DNA of 64,000 nt from Thunnus maccoyii (lineage: Eukaryota; Chordata; Actinopteri; Scombriformes; Scombridae). The stretch covers positions 14,575,425 through 14,639,424 of the forward strand of contig NC_056546.1 in assembly GCF_910596095.1 (NCBI RefSeq). The letters are read 5' to 3'. Position numbers and translations under genes: made by a program. Below the pieces are notes generated by a model that was not told the DNA's origin, did not search any database, and worked only from the letters and a program-made list of their open reading frames with translations. Shown in pieces: positions 72 to 41,260 of the stretch (the stretch's first letter is position 1; the number at the start of each line of letters is the position of its first letter).

Positions 72-3000
72 ATGAGTTTTATTCCTCACCTAATACTGGC
101 TGGACTCATTGGTAAGTCAGCTAAGATTCTAATATGAATGCTATGCATAAATGATAGTCAAGTTTGTAATTAAAACAATATTGTTGGTACTGATATATGT
201 ATTGCTGTTGAGTGATAAAATTTGAGTCTTACATTTAAAGTGACAACTAGCCACTAATTTTAAATTTTTAATATTGTGTTTTAATAAAATTCATGATACT
301 AACCTGTAACTGATATTCATACATACAATGCATTTGAAGGCATCACTACAAGATAAATGTCTGTTGTTGTTTTGGCAGGAATTCACTGTAAAATTATTAC
401 AGTGAGTCGAGTTTCAGTTAAGGCTGGAGGCTCCATCTCTATCCCATGTCTCTATGACCAGTACTACAGAAACCATGTGAAACACTTGTGTCAAGGATAT
501 AAATGGCAGTCGTGTCATATAGTAGTTGACACAAACCAACGAAAAAGTAGTTCAGGAAAGTTTTCAATCTCTGATGATACAAACCAAAGAATCTTCACTG
601 TGACTATTAATGAAATAACGCATAAGGACACTGATTTCTGGTGTGTTGTGGAGAAATGGGGGGAAGATGTCGGACAGTATTTTCAGCTGTCAGTGACCAC
701 AGGTAAAATGCCTTAAATGTTTTAAACACATTTTAAATCCTTTCTGTGAACAATTTGGTGGGGAAGAAAACTAAGAATGTGTCTAATTTTGAATTATCTT
801 TTTGAAGGTATGTCAAATCTGTACGTGGACCAACAAGAAATTACCGCATTTGAAGGAGGAAGTGTGACTATCAACTGTCACTATAAATACTCAGCAGAAA
901 GAAAGTGGTGCAGACTGGGCCGCACCTGTGTGACAAATCAGTCTGGATCAATAGATGGAACAGCAGTGACCATCGACGCCAGTGTCTCTAATGATTTCAC
1001 TGTGACCATGAGTAAACTGAGGACAGAGAGCAGCGGCTGGTACTGGTGTGCTGCAGGAGACTTACAGATGCCATTGCACGTAACTGTTAATGAATTACCC
1101 ACAGCAAGTAAGATTCAAACCATTTTCTATTCTCATAAATTAGTGACCAGTAAGTGGACGCAACAAAAGTGACAAAAATGAAACCCTGATATATCATTAA
1201 TAATAATATTATTATTAAAATTTAACTTGTACATCTGGGAGTTACAGTATTATAATCCATAATATACAGTATCATCAAAATACGGTGATACAATTCTTGC
1301 ATTAACATGGCTTTTTACATGAATTTACTTTGACTTCACAGGGACACTTTCTACCACTCACCAGCATTCCTCCTTGCTCATGAGTGTTGAACCATGTACT
1401 GCCCAGCCCTCAAACACCACCATAACCGGGGCTGGTGGAGAGAGCTTGCAAGATGAACACAAGAGGTTACTACTCTTTACAACTTCAATGTATTTAAATC
1501 TGATTTACAACCTGGATTTGTACAAAAACATTTGCCCCTTTATTCTTGATGAAATGTAGGCTACCTTCCAGACCCACTACAATGACGATTCTCATCACCA
1601 TCCTGGTCTTACAGCTGTTAGTTGTTCTCACTGTGTTTTTTGGATGGAGGATGATAAGATGCAGTAAGTCTGTTGCAAGCTAATGCAAACTGAGGAATGA
1701 AATATCTGTTTCTGTAAAATAACTTCCTCAGAAATGTATGTGTTTGTTATAGATAAGACCAAACCTCGGACGTCTGACATCACAGCGGTAAGTATAGTCA
1801 TGTATTTCCCTTATTATGTTTGCTGATAAGAAATTTGGATTGGTCACACAACACAGAAAGTAAACAGCATTTAAGGAACTTGACCATGCAAGTGTAACTG
1901 TACAATATACCTTATTTAACTACATTAACTGTTTGTTGGCTATAATTTCCTTGATTTACATCAGCATGGTAATTCTGTGAGTTCTGTAAACAGTTGTACT
2001 ATTTAAACCAGAACATTACCTGTCCGGGCCTGTGGATATTACAAACCTGTCTAATACCAGCTAAATACATCAAAATGGAGGAGCTGGAAAATCATGATAT
2101 TTTAAGGGAATTTTTAGACGACATAAAATAATAATAAATGGCGTTGTCCTGCAAGTTAGCTCATTCTTAGAGGCGAAAACCCAGGGCAAAAATGTCACTG
2201 GGTTTCAAATTACTGTAAGTACTAGCTGCTACCCAATGCTGTGAGTATCTGAACATCTGGAGACGACCCTGATGAGTATGTGATCTTTCCTCCTCAGGAT
2301 TATGACAGCCAGACAGTAAGAGGCCACCGTTTAGACAGATTTTAGCAAGTCACTCAGACTAACTGTAAAACTTAAACAAAATCTGTGACATGTCAGATTC
2401 TGTGACATTAGAGGGTCAACAATGGAAAAAATATTGATGCACTGGAGGTGGCAGGCTCCATCACTGCTATCGAAATGTGTGACCCTAACTAAATATTATG
2501 AGATCACCAATTGTGCTAACAGCTATGAAAATATGTGACCTATGTACATCCTGTGGAGTCACCATTTTAGGTAGCAATCACAATATAATACGTGACCCTG
2601 GCAAAAACGTTTGCAGTGGCAATTAAGCCAACTGAGCATGATCAAGTCAGAAAGTCCAATTAAAACAAAAGAATCACTCACCAACAGTCCATCATAGTCC
2701 ATCCGGCATAGGGCTCACAAACTGAAAGTGAATTTGTTAGTTTGTCATGTTGAGTCAGAGTAAGTTGGACCAAAAGCTGTGTCGACCAGGCTTCCAAAAT
2801 TGACCAAATTTTCATCCCAATCCCCCTCACACACTCGCTTCAAAGAAAGAATTTTTCAAGTCTGTCTGAAAACAAGAGTCATTCTACGTAAAGGTGTCCA
2901 TATGAACATTGAAACAGGTTTTGCTTGCTTTAATCTTTTTTTTATTTAAAAGATTTTAAAATTTAAAAGATCCCATCCTAATGTGCTTCCAATTTAAGTG

Positions 3001-4275
3001 ATGGAGGACAAAGTCAAAGGATTGTTTTGTGCAAATATGTGTTTAAAAGTTTGTATGAAGCTAATTTGAAGCTTCAGCAGACTTAACTTGAGCAAATTAG
3101 TCAAATCAAATGTAAACTTTCAAAGTTACAGTCTTTTTAGTAGCTACTGTGGACGGATAATAAGAAAAAGAGGTAATTTGGCACTAAAAAGACAGTAACT
3201 TTAAAAGATACCCACTTGATGTGAATCATTTGGTTGGCTGAAGCTTAATATTAGCCTCAGATAAACTTTTAAATACATTGTTGCATTACATTGAAAGTGC
3301 ACCATCCCCCAAGTGTTGTAGGAGTAAATAGGTGTGCAAAGAACGTTGTGAACTTCACAACTTCAGTTCACAACTTTCTAAAGGTGTGAACTTTATGTTG
3401 AATGCTCTTATGTGTGAATGCTCCTTACAAGCAAATAATTGTGCAGTTAGACAGGAGAAAGCAACTCATTGTAAGATAGCATATGATGAGATTGATGCTA
3501 CATTTCAAATTTGTCCATCATAGGTCTCACAAACTGGGAGTGATGCTGACGTGCGCTATACCACTGTTGTTGTATATGTGGCCTGGAAGGTAAACCAGGC
3601 AAGAAAATAATATTTTTTTAACACAGTATAATTTGCCCACATTTTATTTGTCCGCCTTCATTTTTTCCCCTGAAATTTTATCACTTTGACCTTGTATTTT
3701 GTCCAGCAGGACCAGACACCCAAAGACAGTGTGAAATACAGTACTATTAATAAAAGGGATGGTGCGAAGCAAATGGTATGTGATTTATTTTAAACTCATA
3801 TAAGCCTCTCAATCATGGAAGATTTAAAATGCCTAAATTAAAACAAATCAAAGATAGAAATAAAGTGACATGCAATGTGTCAAAATTAAATGAAAAACAT
3901 ATGTTGAAAGGACAATTATTTAGCTTTTTCAGCCAATACTACATGCAAAGCACTGTCACTGAAGCTCCCCTGCACCTCCTCATGATAATGCATATACACA
4001 AATGCATACATAAAAGGAAATACATCTAACAATGTGTGTTTTATTTCACTTTGTTTCTTTGGTTAAATTGTTTTAATTTAAGAATTTTAAACCTCCCACA
4101 GTTAATATTTAAACTATCTCTTAATAAAGCAAATGAATTTCTGTTGTGTTTTTCATCATTAGGTCATAATTATTCAGTAGTCTGTGCTCTTTTTTCTCAT
4201 TAGACTGAACCAGAAGATGGAGTTGTGATCTACAGCACAGTGGGTCAACACTCAAATAGAATGAAAAAGTTCTAA
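72..4275 (+). CDS. CD300/CMRF35-like (pIgR-like) inhibitory receptor, gene A
   Basis: Exons read by eye: 72-111 (signal peptide start), 379-702 (Ig V domain 1), 808-1107 (Ig V domain 2), 1342-about 1559 (Thr/Ser-rich stalk), 1572-1663 (membrane segment), 1753-1787, 2298-2315, 3524-3589, 3710-3775 and 4204-4275 (stop). Domain 1 has the canonical Cys pair (PCLY and FWCVV), the extra Cys pair typical of CD300/pIgR domains (HLCQGY and QSCH) and the DTDFWC motif. Domain 2 has NCHY, KWCR, TCVT and GWYWC. The membrane segment runs from MTILITI to the basic stop RMIRC. Three ITIM-type tyrosines lie in the last three exons: VRYTTV, VKYSTI and VIYSTV, which in this family recruit SHP phosphatases. The phase joining stalk and membrane exons is unresolved: the stalk reading frame meets TAG at 1557-1559. 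Family assignment is from domain pattern; ligand and exact orthologue are unknown. Confidence 0.75.
2715..3300. repeat. Foldback repeat in intron, 3'-truncated
   Basis: This intronic block shares sequence with 4405-5072. It contains inverted arms, AGTTACAGTCTTTTTAGT near 3123-3140 against ACTAAAAAGACAGTAACT near 3182-3199. The right end is missing compared with the equivalent copy in gene B (about 10,530-11,165). It looks like a non-autonomous palindromic element; the family is not recognised. Confidence 0.6.
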
Positions 4276-7862: not shown

Positions 7863-10800
7863 ATGAGTTTTATTCCTCACCTAATACTGGCTGGACTCAT
7901 TGGTAAGTCAGCTAAGATTCTAATATGAATGCTATGCATAAATGATAGTCAAGTTTGTAATTAAAAAAATATTGTTGGTACTGATATATGTATTGCTGTT
8001 GAGTGATAAAATTTGAGTCTTACATTTAAAGTGACAACTAGCCACTAATTTTAAATTTTAATATTGTGTTTTAATAAAATTCATGATACTAACCTGTAAC
8101 TGATATTGATAAATACAATGCATTTGAAGGCATCACTACAAGATAAATGTCTGTTGTTGTTTTGGCAGGAATTCACTGTAAAATTATTACAGTGAGTCGA
8201 GTTTCAGTTAAGGCTGGAGGCTCCATCTCTATCCCATGTCTCTATGACCAGGACTACAGAGACCATGTGAAATACTTGTGTCAAGGATATAAATGGCATT
8301 CGTCTCATATAGTAGTTAAAACAAAGCAACGACAAAGTAGTTCAGGAAAGTTTTCAATCTCTGTTGACACAAACCAAAGAATCTTCACTGTGACTATTAA
8401 TGATATAACGCATGAGGACACTGATTTCTGGTGTGGTGTGGAGAAATGGGGGGATGATGATGGACAGTATTTTCAGCTGTCAGTGACCACAGGTAAAATG
8501 CCTTAAAAGTTTTAAACACATTTTAAATCCTTTCTGTGAACAATTTGGCGGGGAAGAAAACTAAGAATGTGTCTAATTTTGAATTATCTTTTTGAAGGTA
8601 TGTCAAATCTGTACGTGGACCAACAAGAAATTACAGCATTTAAAGGACGTAGTGTGACTATCAACTGTCACTATAAATACTCAGCAGAAAGAAAGTGGTG
8701 CAGACTGGGCCGCACCTGTGTGACAAATCAGTTTAGATCAATAGATGGAACAGCAGTGACCATCGATGCCAGTGTCTCCGATGTTTTCACTGTGACTATG
8801 AGTGAACTGAGGACAGAGAGCAGCGGCTGGTACTGGTGTGCCGCGGGAGACTTACAGATGCCAGTGCACATAACTGTTAATGAATTACCCTCAACTACAA
8901 TGAGCCCCAGTACAGCAAGTAAGATTCAAACCATTTTCTATTCTCATAAATTAGTGACCAGTAAGTGGACGCAACAAAAGTGACAAAAATGAAACCCTGG
9001 TATATTATTAATAATAATACTATTAATAAATTTTAACTTGTACATCTGTGAGTTACAGTATTATAATCCATAATATACAGTATCATCAAAATACCGTGAT
9101 ACAATTCTTGCATTAACATGGCTTTTTACATGAATTTACTTTGACTTCACAGGGACACTTTCTGTTGAACCAAGTACTGCCCAGCCTACAAAAACCGCCA
9201 TAACCGGGGCTGGTGGAGAGAGCTTGCAAGATGAACACAAGAGGTTACTACTCTTTACAACTTCAATGCATTTAAATCTGATTTACAACCTGGGTTTGTG
9301 CAAAAACATTTGCCCCTTTATTCTTGATGAAATGTAGGCTACCTTCCAGGCCCACTACAATGACGATTCTCATCATCACCCTGGTCTTACTGCTGTTAGT
9401 TGCTCTCACTGCATTTTTTGGATGGATGATGATAAGATGCAGTAAGTCTGTTGTAAGCTAATGCAAACTGAGGAATGAAATATCTGTTTCTGTAAAATAA
9501 TTTCCTCAGAAATGTATGTGTTTGTTACAGATCAGACCAAACCTCGGACGTCTGACATCACAGCGGTAAGTATAGTCATGTATTTCCCTTATTATGTTTG
9601 CTGATAAGAAATTTGGATTGGTCACACAACACAGAAAGTAAACAGCATTTAAGGAACTTGACCATGCAAGTGTAACTGTACAATATACCTTATTTAACTA
9701 CATTAACTGTTTGTTGGCTATAATTTCCTTGATTTACATCAGCATGGTAATTCTGTGAGTTCTGTAAACAGTTGTACTATTTAAACCAGAACATAACCTG
9801 TCCGGGCCTGTGGATATTACAAACCTGTGTAATACCAGCTAAATACATCAAAATGGAAGAGCTGGAAAATCATGATATTTTAAGGGAATATTTAGACGAC
9901 ATAAAATAATAATAAATGGCATTGTCCTGCAAGTTAGCTCATTCTTAGAGGCAAAAACCCAGGGCAAAAATGTCACTGGGTTTCAAATTACTGTAAGTAC
10001 GAGCTGCTACCCAATGCTGTGAGTATCTAAACATCTGGAGATGACCCTGATGAGTATGTGATCTTTCCTCCTCAGGATTATGACAGCCAGACAGTAAGAG
10101 GCCACCGTTTAGACAGATTTTAGCAAGTCACTCAGACTAATTGTAAAACTTATACAAAATCTGTGACATTTCAGATTCTGTGACATAAGACGGTCAACAA
10201 TGGAAAAAATATTGATGCATTGGAGGTGGTGGGCTCCATCACTGCTATCGAAATGTGTGACCCTAACTAAATATTATGAGGTCACCAATTGTGTGAACAG
10301 CTATGAAAATACATGACCTATGTACATCCTGTGGAGTCACCATTTCAGGTAGCAATCACAATATAATACGTGACCCTGGCAAAAACGTTTGCAGTGGCAA
10401 TTAAGCCAACTGAGCATGATCAAGTCAGAAAGTCCAATTAAAACAAAAGAATCACTCACCAACAGTCCATCATAGTCTATCCGGCATAGGGCTCACAAAC
10501 TGAAAGTGAATTTGTTAGTTTGTCATGTTGAGTCAGAGTAAGTTGGACCAAAAGCTGTGTCGACCAGGCTTCCAAAATTGACCAAATTTTCATCCCAATC
10601 CCCCTCACACACTTGCTTTAAAGAAATAATTTTTCAAGTCTGTCTGAAAACAAGAGTCATACTACGTTAAGGTGTCCATATGAACATTGAAACAGGTTTT
10701 GCTTGCTTTAATCTTTTTTTATTTAAAAGATTTTAAAATTTAAAAGATCCCATCCTAATGTGCTTCTAATTTAAGTTATGGAGGACAAAGTCAAAGGATT

Positions 10801-12726
10801 GTTTTGTGCAAATATGTGTTTAAAAGTTTGTATGAAGCTAATTTGAAGCTTCAGCAGACTTAACTTGAGCAAATTAGTCAAATCAAATGTAAACTTTCAA
10901 AGTTACAGTCTTTTTAGTAGCTACTGTGGACGGATAATAAGAAAAAGAGGTAATTTGGCACTAAAAAGACAGTAACTTTAAAAGATACCCACTTGATGTG
11001 AATCATTTGGTTGGCTGAAGCTTAATATTAGCCTCAGATAAACTTTTAAATAAATTGTTGCATTACATTGAAAGTGCATTTGAGTAGGAAGATCTCTCAA
11101 TGTCCAATATGAACAAGAGGAATGATTCAAAGAAAAAACTGTTTGAATGTTCATATGGTGCCATATGTTTATATGGTGGTATTGTTCTGTTCCTACAGCC
11201 TTTGTGCTGATCTAAACCGCAGTTTGACACACCATCCCCCAAGTGTTGTAGGAGTAAGTAGGTGTGCAAAGAACGTTGTGAACTTCACAACTTCAGTTCA
11301 CAACTTTCTAAAGGTGTGAACTTTATGTTGAATGCTCTTATGTGTGAATGCTCCTTACAAGCAAATAATTGTGCAGTTAGACAGGAGAAAGCAACTCATT
11401 GTAAGATAGCATATGATGAGATTGATGCTACATTTCAAATTCGTCCATCGTAGGTCTCACAAACTGGGAGTGATCCTGACGTGCTCTATGCCACCGTTGT
11501 TCATGCGGCCAGGAAGGTAAACCAGACAAAAAAATAATATTTTTTTAACACAGTATAATTTGCCCATATTTTATTTGTCCGCCTTCATTTTTTCCCCTGA
11601 AATTTTATCACTTTGACCTTGTATTTTGTCCAGCAGGACCAGACACCCAAAGACAGTGTGACATACAGTACTATTAATAAAAGGGATGGTGAGAAGCAAA
11701 TGGTATGTGATTTATTTTAAACTCATATAAGCCTCTCAATCATGGAAGATTTAAAATGCCTAAATTAAAACAAATCAAAGATAGAAATAAAGTGACATGC
11801 AATGTGTCAAAATTAAATGAAAAACATATGTTGAAAGGACAATTATTTAGCTTTTTCAGCTCTTATGTGTGAATGCTCCTTACAAGCAAATAATTGTGCA
11901 GTTAGACAGGAGAAAGCAACTCATTGTAAGATAGCATATGATGAGATTGATGCTACATTTCAAATTCGTCCACCGTAGGTCTCACAAACTGGGAGTGATC
12001 CTGACGTGCTCTATGCCAACGTTGTTCATGTGGCCAGGAAGGTAAACCAGACAAAAAAATAATATTTTTTTAACACAGTATAATTTGCCCACATTTTATT
12101 TGTCCACCTTCATTTTTTCCCCTGAAATTTTATCACTTTGACCTTGTATTTTGTCCAGCAGGACCAGACACCCAAAGACAGTGTGACATACAGTACTGTG
12201 AATAAAAGGGATGGTGCGAAGCAAATGGTATGTGATTTATTTTAAACTCATATAAGCCTCTCAATCATGGAAGATTTAAAATGCCTAAATTAAAACAAAT
12301 CAAAGATAGAAATAAAGTGACATGCAATGTGTCAAAATTAAATGAAAAACATATGTTGAAAGGACAATTATTTAGCTTTTTCAGCCAATACTACATGCAA
12401 AGCACTGTCACTGAAGCTCCCCTGCACCTCCTCATGATAATGCATATACACAAATGCATACATAAAAGGAAATACATCTAACAATGTGTGTTTTATTTCA
12501 CTTTGTTTCTTTGGTTAAATTGTTTTAATTTAAGAATTTTAAACCTCCCACAGTTAATACTTAAACTATCTGTTAATAAAGCAAATGAATTTCTGTTGTG
12601 TTTTTCATCATTAGGTCATAATTATTCAGCATTCTGTGCTTTTTTTATCATTAGACTGAACCAGAAGATGGAGTTGTGATCTACAGCACAGTGAGTCAAC
12701 ACTCAGATAGAATGAAAAAGTTCTAA
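7863..12726 (+). CDS. CD300/CMRF35-like (pIgR-like) inhibitory receptor, gene B, five ITIMs
   Basis: Exons read by eye: 7863-7902, 8169-8492 (Ig V 1), 8598-8918 (Ig V 2, 21 nt longer than in gene A), 9153-about 9337 (stalk), 9350-9441 (membrane), 9531-9565, 10076-10093, 11454-11516, 11637-11702, 11979-12041, 12162-12227 and 12655-12726 (stop). The tail exons are all phase 0 and encode VLYATV, VTYSTI, VLYANV, VTYSTV and VIYSTV, so five ITIM-type tyrosines against three in gene A; the extra pair comes from a 525-bp internal duplication. Domain 1 keeps the canonical Cys pair but the second extra Cys is Ser (HSSH, where gene A has QSCH), leaving the Cys of YLCQGY without its usual partner. The stalk frame meets TAG at 9335-9337, as in gene A, so a soluble form or an unseen splice is possible. 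Confidence 0.75.
10530..11165. repeat. Foldback repeat in intron of gene B, full-length copy
   Basis: This is the same element as 2715-3300 but with its right arm preserved (gtccaatatgaacaagagg and following). The equivalent arm in gene A has been lost. Confidence 0.55.
11335..12384 (+). repeat. 525-bp tandem duplication carrying two ITIM exons
   Basis: The unit 11,335-11,859 is followed directly by a near-identical unit, 11,860-12,384. Each contains both ITIM exons with acceptors and donors intact. The junction joins ctttttcag of unit 1 to ctcttatgtgtg of unit 2. Gene A has only one unit, so the event came after the A/B duplication or was lost from A. Confidence 0.93.
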
Positions 12727-19860: not shown

Positions 19861-22602
19861 ATGGCTGCTCCTCTCCACTTTCTCCTCATCCTCACTGGAC
19901 TCACAGGTCAGTCACAGGGGCAATTTTTAACTGTCAAATGATGATAATGACAGCGATAATATAATCCCTTGTAATTACATACCAATGTTTTATTTCATTA
20001 ACTGTGGAGACAACTCTAATTTAATATCTCACACAACAGTTAATAGAAATATCTAGTAAGTAAATTAATATGAAAGAAGAATATTGGTAGCAACTATGTG
20101 CGCTGAAATGCTGTTCTTATTTTTGTTGCAGGAATTCACAGCCTGACTACAGTCAAAAAAGTGTCAGTGAAGCTTGGAAGCTCAATCTCTATCCCATGTC
20201 TTTATAGTTTGAAGTACAAGAACCATGTGAAATACTTGTGTAAAGGATATTACAGGCACTCCTGCTCTTATGCAGTTAAAACAAACCAAGACAGTAGTTC
20301 AAAAAGGTTTTCAATCTCTGATGACCCAAACCAAGGAATCTTCACTGTGACTATAAAAGATCTGACAACTGAAGACACTGATTATTGGTGCTTTGTTGAG
20401 ATCAATGGAGGAGCAGATGTTGGAGAGTATTTTCAGTTGTCAGTCACCAGTGGTAAGATCCCTTAAAGCATCTTTAAGCACATTTGAAATACTTTGTGAA
20501 ATTTTAACGATTTAGAGGAAAAACACTGAAGAATTTTTGCTAAAATTATTATTTTCTCACATTTACTTTGTAAGTCAAACGTAATGACAATAAATGTTAA
20601 GACAGAATGAATTATTTATCTGCTAGATGTTATTATATGCAAAACACATACATTTGAAACATTACCAGCATGTATCAATTATTAGGATACCCACAATTTT
20701 CTATTGAATATTATTCATCTTCCATTAAGGTACACCCCGTCTCTCTGTGACTCATCAGAAGATTATGGGATTTTATGGAGACGAAAAAACCATCAATTGT
20801 TCTAACTGTATCACTGGAGTAATTAAGTGGTGCAAGCTGGACAGGTCCTGTGTGTCAAATCAGCCTGGATCAATAGATGGAACAAACGTGACCATTGTCA
20901 CAGGAATCTGCAATGACCGTGTGACTATGAGTGGACTGAGGATAGAGAGCAGTGGCTGGTATTTATGTGTTAAAGGAGACTTTCAGATGCCAGTGCATCT
21001 GACTGTTAATGAAAAATCTACCACTAGTAAGTATTACACCATTTGTAAATGTTTTGGTGGATTTATTGTTGTCATATTACTCTACAACATTGTCTTATTT
21101 TGAATTATAGCCAAGGCCACAGCCATAGTCACAGCCACAGCCACAGCCACAGCCACAACCGGACATACTCAAACTTTATGCTGCAGTGTTGCAACGAGCC
21201 TCATCATCACTCTGAGTTTGTTGATCTTCATTGTTACGGTGGCCTTGTTCATCTGTTTTTTATTGAAAAAGCACAGTAAGCCCAACCTGAATTTTAATCC
21301 AATTCATGCCAAAAGACTTGTTATTCTTCAATATTTTCACTTTAAAGTTAGATTGTTGTGTATTATACTGTATATTGTGCATTGCACATTGAGTGTCAGT
21401 TACAGGACTTTTCATTGTTTAACTTTTAGAACAGACCAAAGAAGACTCATCAGCTACAACAATGGTAAGATATGCTGATTAATTTCCCAATATAATTTTT
21501 CATAGAGAAGACTGTAAGGTTCCACAGTATAAAGGTAAAAGTGCTTTCCTGATCATGTGCTTCAGTGATGCCAAGATAATTGTATAACTGAATTAAGTTT
21601 CAACATTTTCAGTGAATATGTTGTCTCTTTGCATCACAGAATAGGTGGCAGGACTAAACTGTATAATTGTACAATTGTAAAAATGGTTTACTTGATTATT
21701 TAAAAAAGCATGGTAATGATAGAATCTAATGTAAACTGTGAGAAACAAAATCAAAGAGGTGAAAATGAACGGCTTCAGACTGCTAACATTTGGTTTGCTC
21801 CTTCAACACAGGCTGAAGAGGAAGTAACTTACAGTACTGTCAATGTTAAACACAAGAGAAAAAGGTCTGGCCAGGTAACTCCAACTTCAATGTTCAGAAC
21901 ATTTTCAGAGGATATATTGCCCCTGTACAGTCTACAGGACTATACTGTGCAATTGCAGATGGATATCTATCTATCCTATAACATAAAATACATCCTAATA
22001 TGCAATATTAAAATAAATTTTAATGGGGCTGCAACTAACAGTTATTTTCATTATCAAATAATCTGCTGATTCTTTTCTCGATTAATTGCTTAGCCAATGA
22101 AATGTTAAAAAATGGAGGAAAATGATGATTATTATTATTATTATTATTATTATTAGTAGTAGTAGTAGTAGTAGTATATCCAATTAACTGTCATATATGA
22201 ACATCTTCACATTTGAGAAGCTGGAACTATCAATATTTGTCATTTTTAATTTGTGATAGCTCTATTTAATGTTTATGGTAATTCCTTGATTATGATATGT
22301 TTGCCTTAAAATTAAAGTATTTCTTATTTCTGTGAATGACATTTGCTCTTTCAATGCAGGCTGTACCGGATGCAATATATGGTAATGTTGATAACACGAG
22401 AAAAGCCTCAGTCCAGGTAACCATAACACATTAAAACTATAATTTGTCTTACATTATACAAGTACAACTTCACCCAGTGCAACTGTATAAAACAAAAACT
22501 TTTCATATCTATCTCCCCTTCTTTACCCAGAGGCCATGTGCTGAGAGTGATGTGAATGTGATATACACTGCTGTGGTTACCCAGAAGCAACAACATGTTT
22601 GA
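19861..22602 (+). CDS. CD300/CMRF35-like (pIgR-like) inhibitory receptor, gene C
   Basis: Exons: 19861-19906 (signal peptide MAAPLHFLLILTGLTG), 20132-20452 (Ig V 1), 20730-21026 (Ig V 2), 21111-21275 (stalk plus membrane), 21430-21464, 21812-21874, 22360-22416 and 22531-22602. All phases agree and the joined frame is open. Domain 1 has PCLY, the extra pair YLCKGY and HSCS, and DTDYWC; domain 2 has NCSN, KWCK, SCVS and GWYLC. The stalk is coded by an (ACAGCC)n microsatellite giving alternating Thr and Ala. The membrane segment runs about from SLIITLSLL to FICFLLKKH. Tail motifs are VTYSTV, AIYGNV (imperfect) and VIYTAV. The exon plan matches genes A and B, but sequence divergence shows an older split. 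An inhibitory myeloid-type receptor is the likely role; its ligand is unknown. Confidence 0.8.
22024..22250. mobile_element. TIR MITE fragment in gene C intron
   Basis: It begins ggggctgcaactaacagtta and contains the characteristic cacatttgagaagctggaac, shared with copies at 25,030, 28,636 and 30,787. It is interrupted by a (TTA)n/(TAG)n microsatellite at about 22,126-22,176. Confidence 0.6.
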
Positions 22603-24234: not shown

Positions 24235-24780
24235 GAAAATTGCTGCACTTTCTTCTCATCCTCATTGGATTCACAGGTGAGTCACAGGGGTCAACTTTCA
24301 TTGTTAATATACTGTATGTGATATCTTACCATTGTGATGGTTATTTCAGATGATAACAATGTTTTTATTTAATATATTGTGGAGACAAGTATAACTTAAT
24401 ATGTAAAACAAAGTTAATATGAATATCTAGTCATAGGAAGGACAAATATTGTTAGCTTAAATAGCAGGCTCTGTTTGGTCTTGTTACAGGAATTCACAGC
24501 CTAACTACAGTTATTAAGGTGTCAGTGAGTATTGTGAACACTTGTGTAAAGGATGTCATTGGTTGTCCTGCTCATGTGTAGTTACAACAATCAAAAGTCA
24601 TTCAGGAAAGTTATCAATCTCTGATGACAAAAAACAAAGTCATCAAACAAACAAAAAAAACTTAGCAGTAAATATTACTGATCAGATGGATAAAGAAATA
24701 AAAGATAAAGACATTTGGTTGGCTGAAGGGGAAGTGACATATACTGTACTGTTAAGCACAAGACCAAAACTTCAGGCCAG
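24235..24780 (+). pseudogene. CD300-like pseudogene (gene C relative), deletion-fused
   Basis: A signal-peptide exon remnant (24,235-24,276, reading LLHFLLILIGFTG) has lost its ATG but keeps its donor. The next exon begins at 24,490 like gene C (GIHSL) but a deletion removes the first canonical Cys region and shifts frame. Near 24,715 the Ig sequence (KDIW) runs directly into EGEVTYTV, which matches ITIM exon 21812-21874 of gene C and ends at the same donor. An internal deletion therefore removed domain 2, stalk and membrane exons. Confidence 0.8.
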
Positions 24781-39400: not shown

Positions 39401-39598
39401 GATTTTCTCCCCTCCAAAGTTTTTCACAATAATTCTTTGTTTTCAGTGGTGAAATGTAACTAAGTACATTTACTCCTGTACTGTACTTTGTTTTTATAAA
39501 ACTGAGGTACTTGTGACTTACTTACATTATATGCTACTTTATTTCTACCTCGCTACATTTTGGAGGGAAATACTGTACTTTTTACTCCACTACATGTA

Positions 39599-40056
39599 TA
39601 CACCCACTGACCACTTTATTAGGAACACCTGTGCAATCTAATGCAATCCAATAGCTCTGCCATAAATTCTACATTTATGAAGTTTATACATTTTCAGTTT
39701 CTTTTGACATTGTCAGAAAGGTGATAATTCTACTTAATGTTTATTACTGAGCTTGTAGTAGGTGGTGGTGGTGGTATACTACAGTGCATTATATTGAAAA
39801 GTGTTCCTAATATTTTGCCCTCCTCATGTATGTTAATGGAGTGGACAAAATATTAGGAACACTGTTCAATATAATGCACTCCAGTACACCACCACCACCC
39901 ACTACAACCTTAATAATAAACATAAAGCAGAATTATCACCTTTCAGACAATGTCAGCAAAAACTGAAAATGTATAAGCTTTGTAAATGTACAATTTATGG
40001 CAGAGCTGTTGTATTGGATTGCACAGGTGAACCTAATAAAGTGGCTGGTGAGTGTA
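39599..40056. mobile_element. Near-perfect palindromic MITE with TA target duplication
   Basis: The left half (cacccactgaccactttatt through to ttcctaatattttgccc) is almost the exact reverse complement of the right half, around a short loop at about 39,820-39,843. TA occurs at both outer borders. Ends of the form cactgaccactttattagga are common in fish genomes and suggest a Tc1/mariner-type foldback element. Confidence 0.85.
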
Positions 40057-41260
40057 TTACAGCTAGAGTGGCTAGTTACTTTGCATTTTCAGGTTTTACA
40101 TGCAAACAGCTTAAAATATGATGCATTATTGAGTAAAGAACCAAACTTTATGTAGTAAAAATGAGCTCTTTTTTGACCAACTACAATGTTATAATGCTGT
40201 TTACATATTAGTGCATCAGCAATAATAATTCAATAAAATTATGTATAATGTAAAACACTTACAGGGGCTGTTCTGCACAATCAGTACTTTTACCTTTGAT
40301 ACTTTTACTTTTAGTACATTTCGCTGATAATACTTTTGTGCTGACTTAACTTTAGAATGCAGTACTTTCACTTGTCATAGAGTATTGCTACTTTTATTTT
40401 AATTAAATGATCTAAATACTTCTTCCACCACATTTGTTTATCTTCTAATTTAATGCTAGCATGTATATTCTGTAATTTTCAATTAATTTAAGAACATTGG
40501 TATAACACATGAAATATGATTGTTATTCAAGATTTTACTGTCTAACTGTACTGTGTAATGTTCTCTGATTACATGGTCTTTGAAAGCATAAAATTATGCT
40601 TCATTTTGCCCTACTGCTAATTACACTTGTAAATCAAAACTTACATTTCATACAACACTCATGTTGTGAAGGCTTTCTATGTGTATTTACATGTGTCTGT
40701 ACTAATAAACTGTAACACCTCAGGCCAGTGTAGACTTGAATCATGCCCTTGTTTTTAAAGACATGGACTCCTTGAATGTGAGCTGCTTGCCTTCAGCTAG
40801 TAATAGAGCAAGAATGTAAAACATCCTTGCCATAGTGTAATTCAAGTGGAATGTTACAGTATTTCAGACCCAGCTGTAAAATGGTACATAAAAAGCGTAA
40901 TGTATATTAAAAACTAAAGATCACAACAATTAAAAACACTCAACTGTGAAATAACATATGCAAAGGCTTCTGTGTTCATCTTCCTATAAAGAGCTTAACT
41001 GTAGCGTCTTTAAAAGATTTAGTCTTGAGTTGTTTTCAGCTTTATTCCCCATACATCATATTTGTTTTTTGATGTGTGAGATGTTGTGGTTACAGTAATG
41101 TAGCCACAAAAAGAGCTGATCATATCAGCCTGTAAACAAAATGAGATGTTTCATGTTCTGTTACAATAACAAGAAAACTACTATTTTTTATGTTTATCTG
41201 ATCCTGAGATGCACAGGTATTTATTGATTTGGGGCATTTTTGATGCTTGAAATGGTATAT
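40057..41260. other. Spacer, no gene seen
   Basis: AT-rich, non-coding. Repeated words such as gtacttttac and atacttttac at about 39,460-39,600 and 40,280-40,440 flank the palindromic MITE. They suggest that it inserted into an older repeat with inverted halves. Confidence 0.5.

Follow-up and report, generated by a model that had tools for sequence, protein, structure and literature searches.

Evidence for diversifying selection on the first immunoglobulin domain, and for exchange among copies, in a tandem array of CD300/pIgR-like receptor genes of Thunnus maccoyii

By sequence, the solved structures nearest to the genes analyzed in the present study are those of the polymeric immunoglobulin receptor (pIgR), followed by those of CD300/CMRF35-like molecules (CLM). 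Mammalian CD300 usually carries one immunoglobulin (Ig) domain, and CD300/pIgR-like domains feature a second pair of cysteines, located in the C-C' segment. Teleost pIgR and pIgR-like proteins have two V-set domains, as does the array gene described here, which differs from pIgR in the two to five ITIM-like motifs of its tail. The CD300/CMRF35-like receptors (CLM-1/CD300LF) share with the array gene an ITIM-like tail and a V-set domain whose CC' segment follows the pattern C-Q-G-x4-S-C; however, the array gene has two Ig domains, unlike mammalian CD300, and its copy B is without the second CC' cysteine. In a single-sequence search of the PDB, domain 1 (D1) and domain 2 (D2) of gene A both had as their best match 5f1s, which we take to be a teleost pIgR, and the same entry came second in a profile search. 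The 16 best of 22 PDB matches, and likewise the 16 best of 100 profile-search matches, were pIgR/secretory component or CMRF35/CLM entries. On this likeness in sequence, we call the array gene a CD300/pIgR-like receptor and keep both names side by side.

The window, that is, the whole stretch of 64,000 nucleotides analyzed here, lies on contig NC_056546.1 (C14 below) of the 782-Mb assembly GCF_910596095.1 and opens inside a receptor array. When the D1 exon of gene A was used as a DNA query, nine places were found, all lying in a stretch of about 64 kb: seven tandem units (G1-G7) spaced 7.8-8.3 kb apart, of which A is G6 and B is G7, accompanied by an older paralogue (G8) and a relic (G9). Ten exon types are common to the seven units, with the splice sites kept in all seven, and the encoded protein comprises a signal peptide and a transmembrane segment (TM), both assigned by eye, two V-set domains, a stalk and a tail (Table 1). 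D1 and D2 of A and B all match the V-set of Pfam above the cut-off. Scored against the ITIM consensus, the tails of all seven copies contain two to five ITIM-like motifs, and the array receptors may signal as inhibitory (ITIM) receptors. The reading frame is open in six of the seven copies, including B once both of its tandem tail-exon pairs are counted in; in G3, D1 is interrupted by a TGA nonsense codon with the splice sites intact (G000:C14:14551899-14552225, L005), and this copy is probably a recent null. Several smaller differences among the copies were also observed. The tail exon pair 7-8 is tandemly duplicated in B (window 11454-12227) and G3 likewise has an extra pair; B has five ITIM-like motifs, compared with two or three in the five copies other than B and G3. 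The N-glycosylation sequon NIT at D1 codon 78 is found in G1 only (G000:C14:14536215-14536541, L003), and the sequons of D2 vary from copy to copy. Elsewhere in the window, self-comparison revealed an inverted match of about 470 bp with 83% identity (39595-40061).

Table 1. Array features within the window, with positions counted from its first letter
Feature	Position	Strand	Remarks
Gene A (array copy G6), predicted	72..4275	+	382 aa; frame open; three ITIM-like motifs
Gene A, coding exons 1-5	72-111 (signal), 379-702 (D1), 808-1107 (D2), 1342-1465 (stalk), 1560-1663 (TM)	+	
Gene A, remaining coding exons	1753-1787, 2298-2315, 3524-3589, 3710-3775, 4204-4275 (tail)	+	
A D1 exon, V-set	379..702	+	same sequence as D1 exon of upstream copy G5
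A D2 exon, V-set	808..1107	+	
Gene B (array copy G7), predicted	7863..12726	+	five ITIM-like motifs
Gene B, first six coding exons	7863-7902, 8169-8492 (D1), 8598-8918 (D2), 9153-9243, 9338-9441, 9531-9565	+	
Gene B, last six coding exons	10076-10093, 11454-11516, 11637-11702, 11979-12041, 12162-12227, 12655-12726	+	
B D1 exon, V-set	8169..8492	+	
G8 D1 exon (older paralogue, outgroup)	20132..20452	+	65% aa identity to A; bounds by eye
G8 D2 match	20741-21028	+	bounds by eye
G9 partial domain-1 relic	24530..24718	+	38-45% aa identity

An earlier note on this DNA described a burst of amino-acid replacement in D1 between A and B, and its counts were accurate. The two D1 exons, both 324 bp, align without gaps and differ at exactly 17 bases; 14 residues are changed as a result, and a single codon (66) is wholly silent. 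The 267-bp intron before the exon, put at about four differences, has three in 266 aligned bases and one 1-base indel. From A to B, the replacements are Y28D, N31D, H35Y, Q43H, C45S, D50K, N52K, K55Q, D65V, E78D, K82E, V89G, E95D and V97D in A's domain-1 numbering. Counted by shortest codon paths favouring silent steps, the pair differs by 15 replacement and 2 silent steps, a bias that is not significant for this pair alone (15:2, P = 0.11). The 15 replacement steps over about 237 sites exceed the 18 differences over 787 intron sites (Fisher P = 0.005), and the D2 exon diverges equally between A and B (16 of 278 bases; 11 replacement and 8 silent steps). When the 17 sites were compared across the seven copies, both bases were present in other copies at seven sites, six bases were found in B only and four in A and G5 only. 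All six B-only bases are replacements, including the loss of Cys45 in the CC' segment, and at codon 82 G8 has the base of B; the A/G5-only bases comprise three replacements and one silent change, and at codon 89 G8 has the base of A. The D1 exon diverges more than the preceding intron in 20 of the 21 copy pairs, the remaining pair, G5 and A, showing zero in both; the contrast is therefore array-wide, and the idea of a burst specific to A and B has to be given up. In 200-bp windows across the seven copies, the mean pairwise difference was 4.2-6.2% over positions 400-1000 of the unit, a stretch that takes in almost the whole of D1 and roughly two thirds of D2; the remaining windows up to 7.0 kb had values of 0-2.8%, with two exceptions (3.8% at 2.4-2.6 kb and 3.9% at 3.4-3.6 kb, the latter with a tail exon); windows from 7000 on, which are not homologous in G7, were left out of this profile. 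Over the first 1.8 kb, G5 and A differ at three bases in D2 and one in the stalk exon, and nowhere else. In a search of the open-licence literature, no report of such an exon-intron contrast in fish CD300 arrays was found.

The minimum numbers of changes per codon column in the seven copies were 39 replacement and 7 silent for D1 and 34 replacement and 13 silent for D2; tested against the share of silent changes expected, these counts give P = 0.036 and P = 0.53, respectively. The mutation expectation was taken from the array's own non-coding DNA in AT, GC and CpG classes, and the P values derived from it assume independent changes, with just 56 non-coding sites in the CpG class. Against this expectation, replacements in D1 were 3.6-fold (P = 3e-11) and silent changes 1.7-fold (P = 0.12, not significant), the replacements relative to silent changes standing at 2.1 times expectation, and in D2 replacements were 3.0-fold (P = 5e-8) and silent changes 2.85-fold (P = 0.0009). 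A joint excess of silent and replacement changes, as in D2, is not what selection on amino acids alone produces. Codon site models were fitted with our own implementation of the standard models, and for D1 the comparison of M1a with M2a favoured positive selection (LRT 26.5; six sequences, G5 omitted as identical to A, one hand-placed codon gap), in line with the earlier note, which had proposed a codon-model estimate of dN/dS for this exon. Nine columns had a posterior above 0.8, namely 10, 28, 41, 43, 50, 92, 94, 95 and 96, where columns above 92 equal A's residue number plus one. The LRT rose to 51.4 on a star tree and to 29.0 when codons 91-99 were removed, and fell to 18.7 when the nonsense copy G3 was dropped. 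The mean omega of D1, 2.06, was not significantly above 1 (LRT 2.64), and without codons 91-99 it was 7.9, which is significant (LRT 7.4). In D2, the site-model signal was absent (LRT 1.69) and pN/pS was 0.66; the corresponding ratios of 1.19 for the stalk, 0.73 for the transmembrane segment and 0.99 for the tail indicate that these parts are not strongly conserved.

Since the copies recombine, null simulations were made for D1. The largest null LRT was 5.4 without recombination (n = 24), 9.8 under M1a when the tree was reshuffled at intervals of six codons (n = 24), and 20.5 (n = 24) and 17.1 (n = 52) under neutral nulls reshuffled in the same way; the nominal cut-off was passed by 0/24, 2/24, 4/24 and 15/52 of these simulations, respectively. 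The first 72 were run with one optimizer start and had a mean of 39-42 variable codons, compared with 29 observed, and the further 52 had two starts and a mean of 32. Recombination thus inflates the site test badly, 21 of the 100 shuffled D1 simulations passing the nominal cut-off, and the chi-square P values are unusable because recombined nulls pass so often. None of the 124 simulations, 100 of which had the topology reshuffled, attained 26.5, and the harshest null (neutral and reshuffled, 76 runs) gives a bound of about 1 in 77. These results support diversifying selection on domain 1 of the array, in the form of defined sites at which replacements outnumber what silent and non-coding changes would predict. 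The selection suspected in the earlier note is upheld in this respect by the seven-copy array and by the second array described below, and not by the A-B pair alone, from which it had been proposed.

The loop names used for the window array follow an AlphaFold2 model of A's D1 made with a three-sequence alignment. The model has a mean pLDDT of 81.6, lowest at residues 1-10 and 51-60, and contains strands B (19-24), C (34-38), C' (48-50), F (85-92) and G (95-106), with letters assigned by us, together with a CC' loop at 39-47 and an FG turn at 93-94. On the basis of these modelled strand limits, codon 28 is placed in the BC loop, codons 41 and 43 in the CC' loop, codon 50 at the end of C' and codon 10 in the first strand, and columns 92 and 94-96 (A residues 92-95) are placed at or beside the FG turn. 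By plain count on the model, seven of the nine hot codons fall in or beside the BC, CC' and FG loops. In the predicted proteins, both cysteines of the CC' segment are present in six of the seven copies, and the second is lost in B (C45S). This segment reads C-Q-G-Y-K-W-Q-S-C in A, as placed by eye, and C-Q-G-V-P-Q-R-S-C in CLM-1/CD300LF. According to the accessible text of PMC7431780, the V-P-Q-R residues differ between two mouse strains, decide the function of CD300LF as a murine norovirus receptor in macrophage-like cells and, with CDR3, flank the phospholipid pocket of the protein.

A second array of V-set exons was found on another contig at C2:32089055-32135137 (32.09-32.13 Mb), with eight places (L029, L035, L036, L038, L041, L042, L044 and L046) at a spacing of mostly 6.5-7.8 kb. 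A Pfam V-set match was obtained in both of the two copies checked, and one copy checked matches pIgR and CLM-1 structures. Six of the eight places were compared, L029 and L046 having been left out by choice, before counting and without a test. The V-exon showed minimum changes of 43 replacement and 5 silent in the six copies (P = 0.0046). Its replacement rate was 18% per site, compared with 4.3% in the 3' flank (1030 bp), which may contain further exons, and 6.1% in the 5' flank (428 bp), and its silent rate of 5.8% was not above that of the 3' flank (P = 0.58). The mean omega was 5.1 (LRT 11.1), and the M1a-M2a LRT of 46 was attained by none of 46 neutral shuffled simulations (largest 17.6; two optimizer starts, mean of 35 variable codons), 13 of which passed the nominal cut-off. 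Among the 14 codons with a high posterior, six lie in the CC' (41, 43, 44) and FG (96, 99, 103) stretches and eight outside them (7, 8, 10, 12, 23, 30, 62, 107), four of these near the N-terminus; codons 41-43 stand opposite Pro-Gln-Arg of the CLM-1/CD300LF CC' loop in a HMMER alignment. Related V-set exons form a third cluster, with both orientations represented, at C3:32864492-33039093 (L031, L033, L034, L037, L039, L040, L043, L045 and L047); eight of these nine places were submitted to alignment and did not align. Further places occur on contigs C4 and C12 and at 31.47 Mb of C2.

Exchange among the visible copies of the window array is real, by conversion or unequal exchange, and each unit is a mosaic. 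When windows of 400 bp were compared, the copy closest to A was G5 in the first 2.4 kb (4 differences) and G2 at 2.4-5.2 and 5.6-6.4 kb, and from 2.8 kb onward G5 and G4 showed at most one difference per window. The closeness of A and G5 thus spans the first 2.4 kb and not the exon alone, which means that the two share a longer stretch. The longest identical run reached an uncorrected permutation P of 0.022 or less in 7 of the 21 pairs; the run shared by G3 and G4 crosses the end of the D1 exon, and that of G1 and A lies inside D2 (unit 830-900, window 829-899; uncorrected P = 0.022), which suggests a short exchange tract. In a PHI-type test over all informative sites, nearby sites were more compatible than chance (P = 0.0005 at 30 bp, 0.029 at 100 bp). 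The test gave P = 0.0005 at 30 bp and 0.62 at 100 bp within D2, and was not significant within D1 alone (P = 0.17 at 30 bp, 0.13 at 100 bp).

Herein, we propose that a young tandem array is being homogenized by unequal crossing-over and conversion while diversifying selection keeps its Ig exons different, and we consider this the probable explanation. Unequal crossing-over and gene conversion among the seven copies would homogenize the young array, and diversifying selection would maintain the Ig-exon differences among them; in domain 1, positive selection would be site-specific and act mainly at the BC and CC' loops, at the last part of strand C' and near the FG turn. Short exchange tracts would carry part of the variants between copies, and because of this the exons would look old and mosaic and the introns young. 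The loops would be expected to contact ligand, and pathogens or changing ligands might be the driver. Homogenization might also act without positive selection, with conversion erasing the intron differences and purifying selection against conversion preserving old exon differences. This account, which we regard as rather unlikely, is favoured by the silent excess and the low pN/pS of D2, by the mean omega of D1 and by the precedent of the gibbon L/M opsins, in which silent and replacement exon divergence both exceed intron divergence in the accessible part of PMC3213168. Against it stand the excess of D1 replacements relative to silent changes, a D1 site signal above that of all 124 simulations, and a second array in which silent divergence does not exceed that of the 3' flank and replacements are about four times the flank. 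The silent excess of D2 suggests that its exon lineages are older or have been exchanged, or that the introns have been homogenized, and together with the exchange observed it makes selection plus conversion a better fit than selection alone.

The earlier note had offered, as the other source of the A-B difference, conversion of the exon from an unseen paralogue. The identity of the D1 exons of A and G5 could be read in this way; however, their closeness extends beyond the exon, the D1 exon of B is found whole in none of the other copies, and the longest identical run of B with each other copy, the one run considered per pair, falls outside the D1 exon. In a protein search of the assembly, 8 of the 30 matches listed lie in this array, all with at least 65% identity, and none of the 22 listed outside it exceeds 40% (counts that are lower bounds), which makes a hidden whole-exon donor in this assembly unlikely. 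Such a donor was thus rejected as a candidate, and the proposal as a whole seems very improbable to us; conversion among visible copies is the part of it that stood. Relaxed constraint or a mutational hot spot across the Ig exons has an equally slight chance of being right. In its favour, the G+C content of D1 and D2 (40% and 46%) is higher than that of introns (28.5%), as is their CpG density (1.5 and 2.3 per 100 bases, compared with 0.25), and the CpG rate used for correction comes from few sites. Nevertheless, the replacement excess survives correction for the CpG, GC and AT classes, by which base composition as the sole cause was rejected, silent change shows no significant increase in either D1 or the C2 V-exon, and six of the seven frames remain open with splice sites kept in every copy.

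The two arrays, on different contigs, might have diversified independently at the same pocket, beside the CC' and FG loops that in mouse CD300LF bind a virus, perhaps in an arms race over the pocket in which the cysteine loss of B reshapes it and array-wide conversion shuffles its variants; this is a tentative idea that we hold to be possible rather than likely. In mouse CD300LF, strain variation at the CC'/FG pocket influences the entry of norovirus; selection may target this pocket in the present arrays as well, and the hot codons of D1 name residues that can be tested. This genome, in which both tandem arrays of related receptors combine young introns with pocket loops that change quickly, offers a replicated test case, and studies that sequence such arrays with short reads will confuse the copies with one another. 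The process is of a known kind, here shown in two arrays of one genome. The accessible text on the herring CLM2 cluster (PMC11088111) also describes fish CLM genes that lie in a cluster and are unusually diverse in coding sequence, together with pseudogenes and one copy with a nonsense mutation; that cluster has four genes, and the same text contains no exon-intron or replacement-silent analysis. Likewise, clustered homologues with high polymorphism are described in the fathead minnow CMRF35-like cluster, without a copy-by-copy analysis in the accessible part of PMC9420404. Conversion between CD300 paralogues is known from primate CD300A/CD300C, where, in the text available from PMC12447643, it keeps the ectodomains alike, whereas those of the present array stay different. 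In the gibbon L/M opsins, the exons of tandem copies are more divergent than the introns owing to conversion, as in the array; however, positive selection was not found there, and replacement divergence is not above silent divergence, in the accessible part of PMC3213168.
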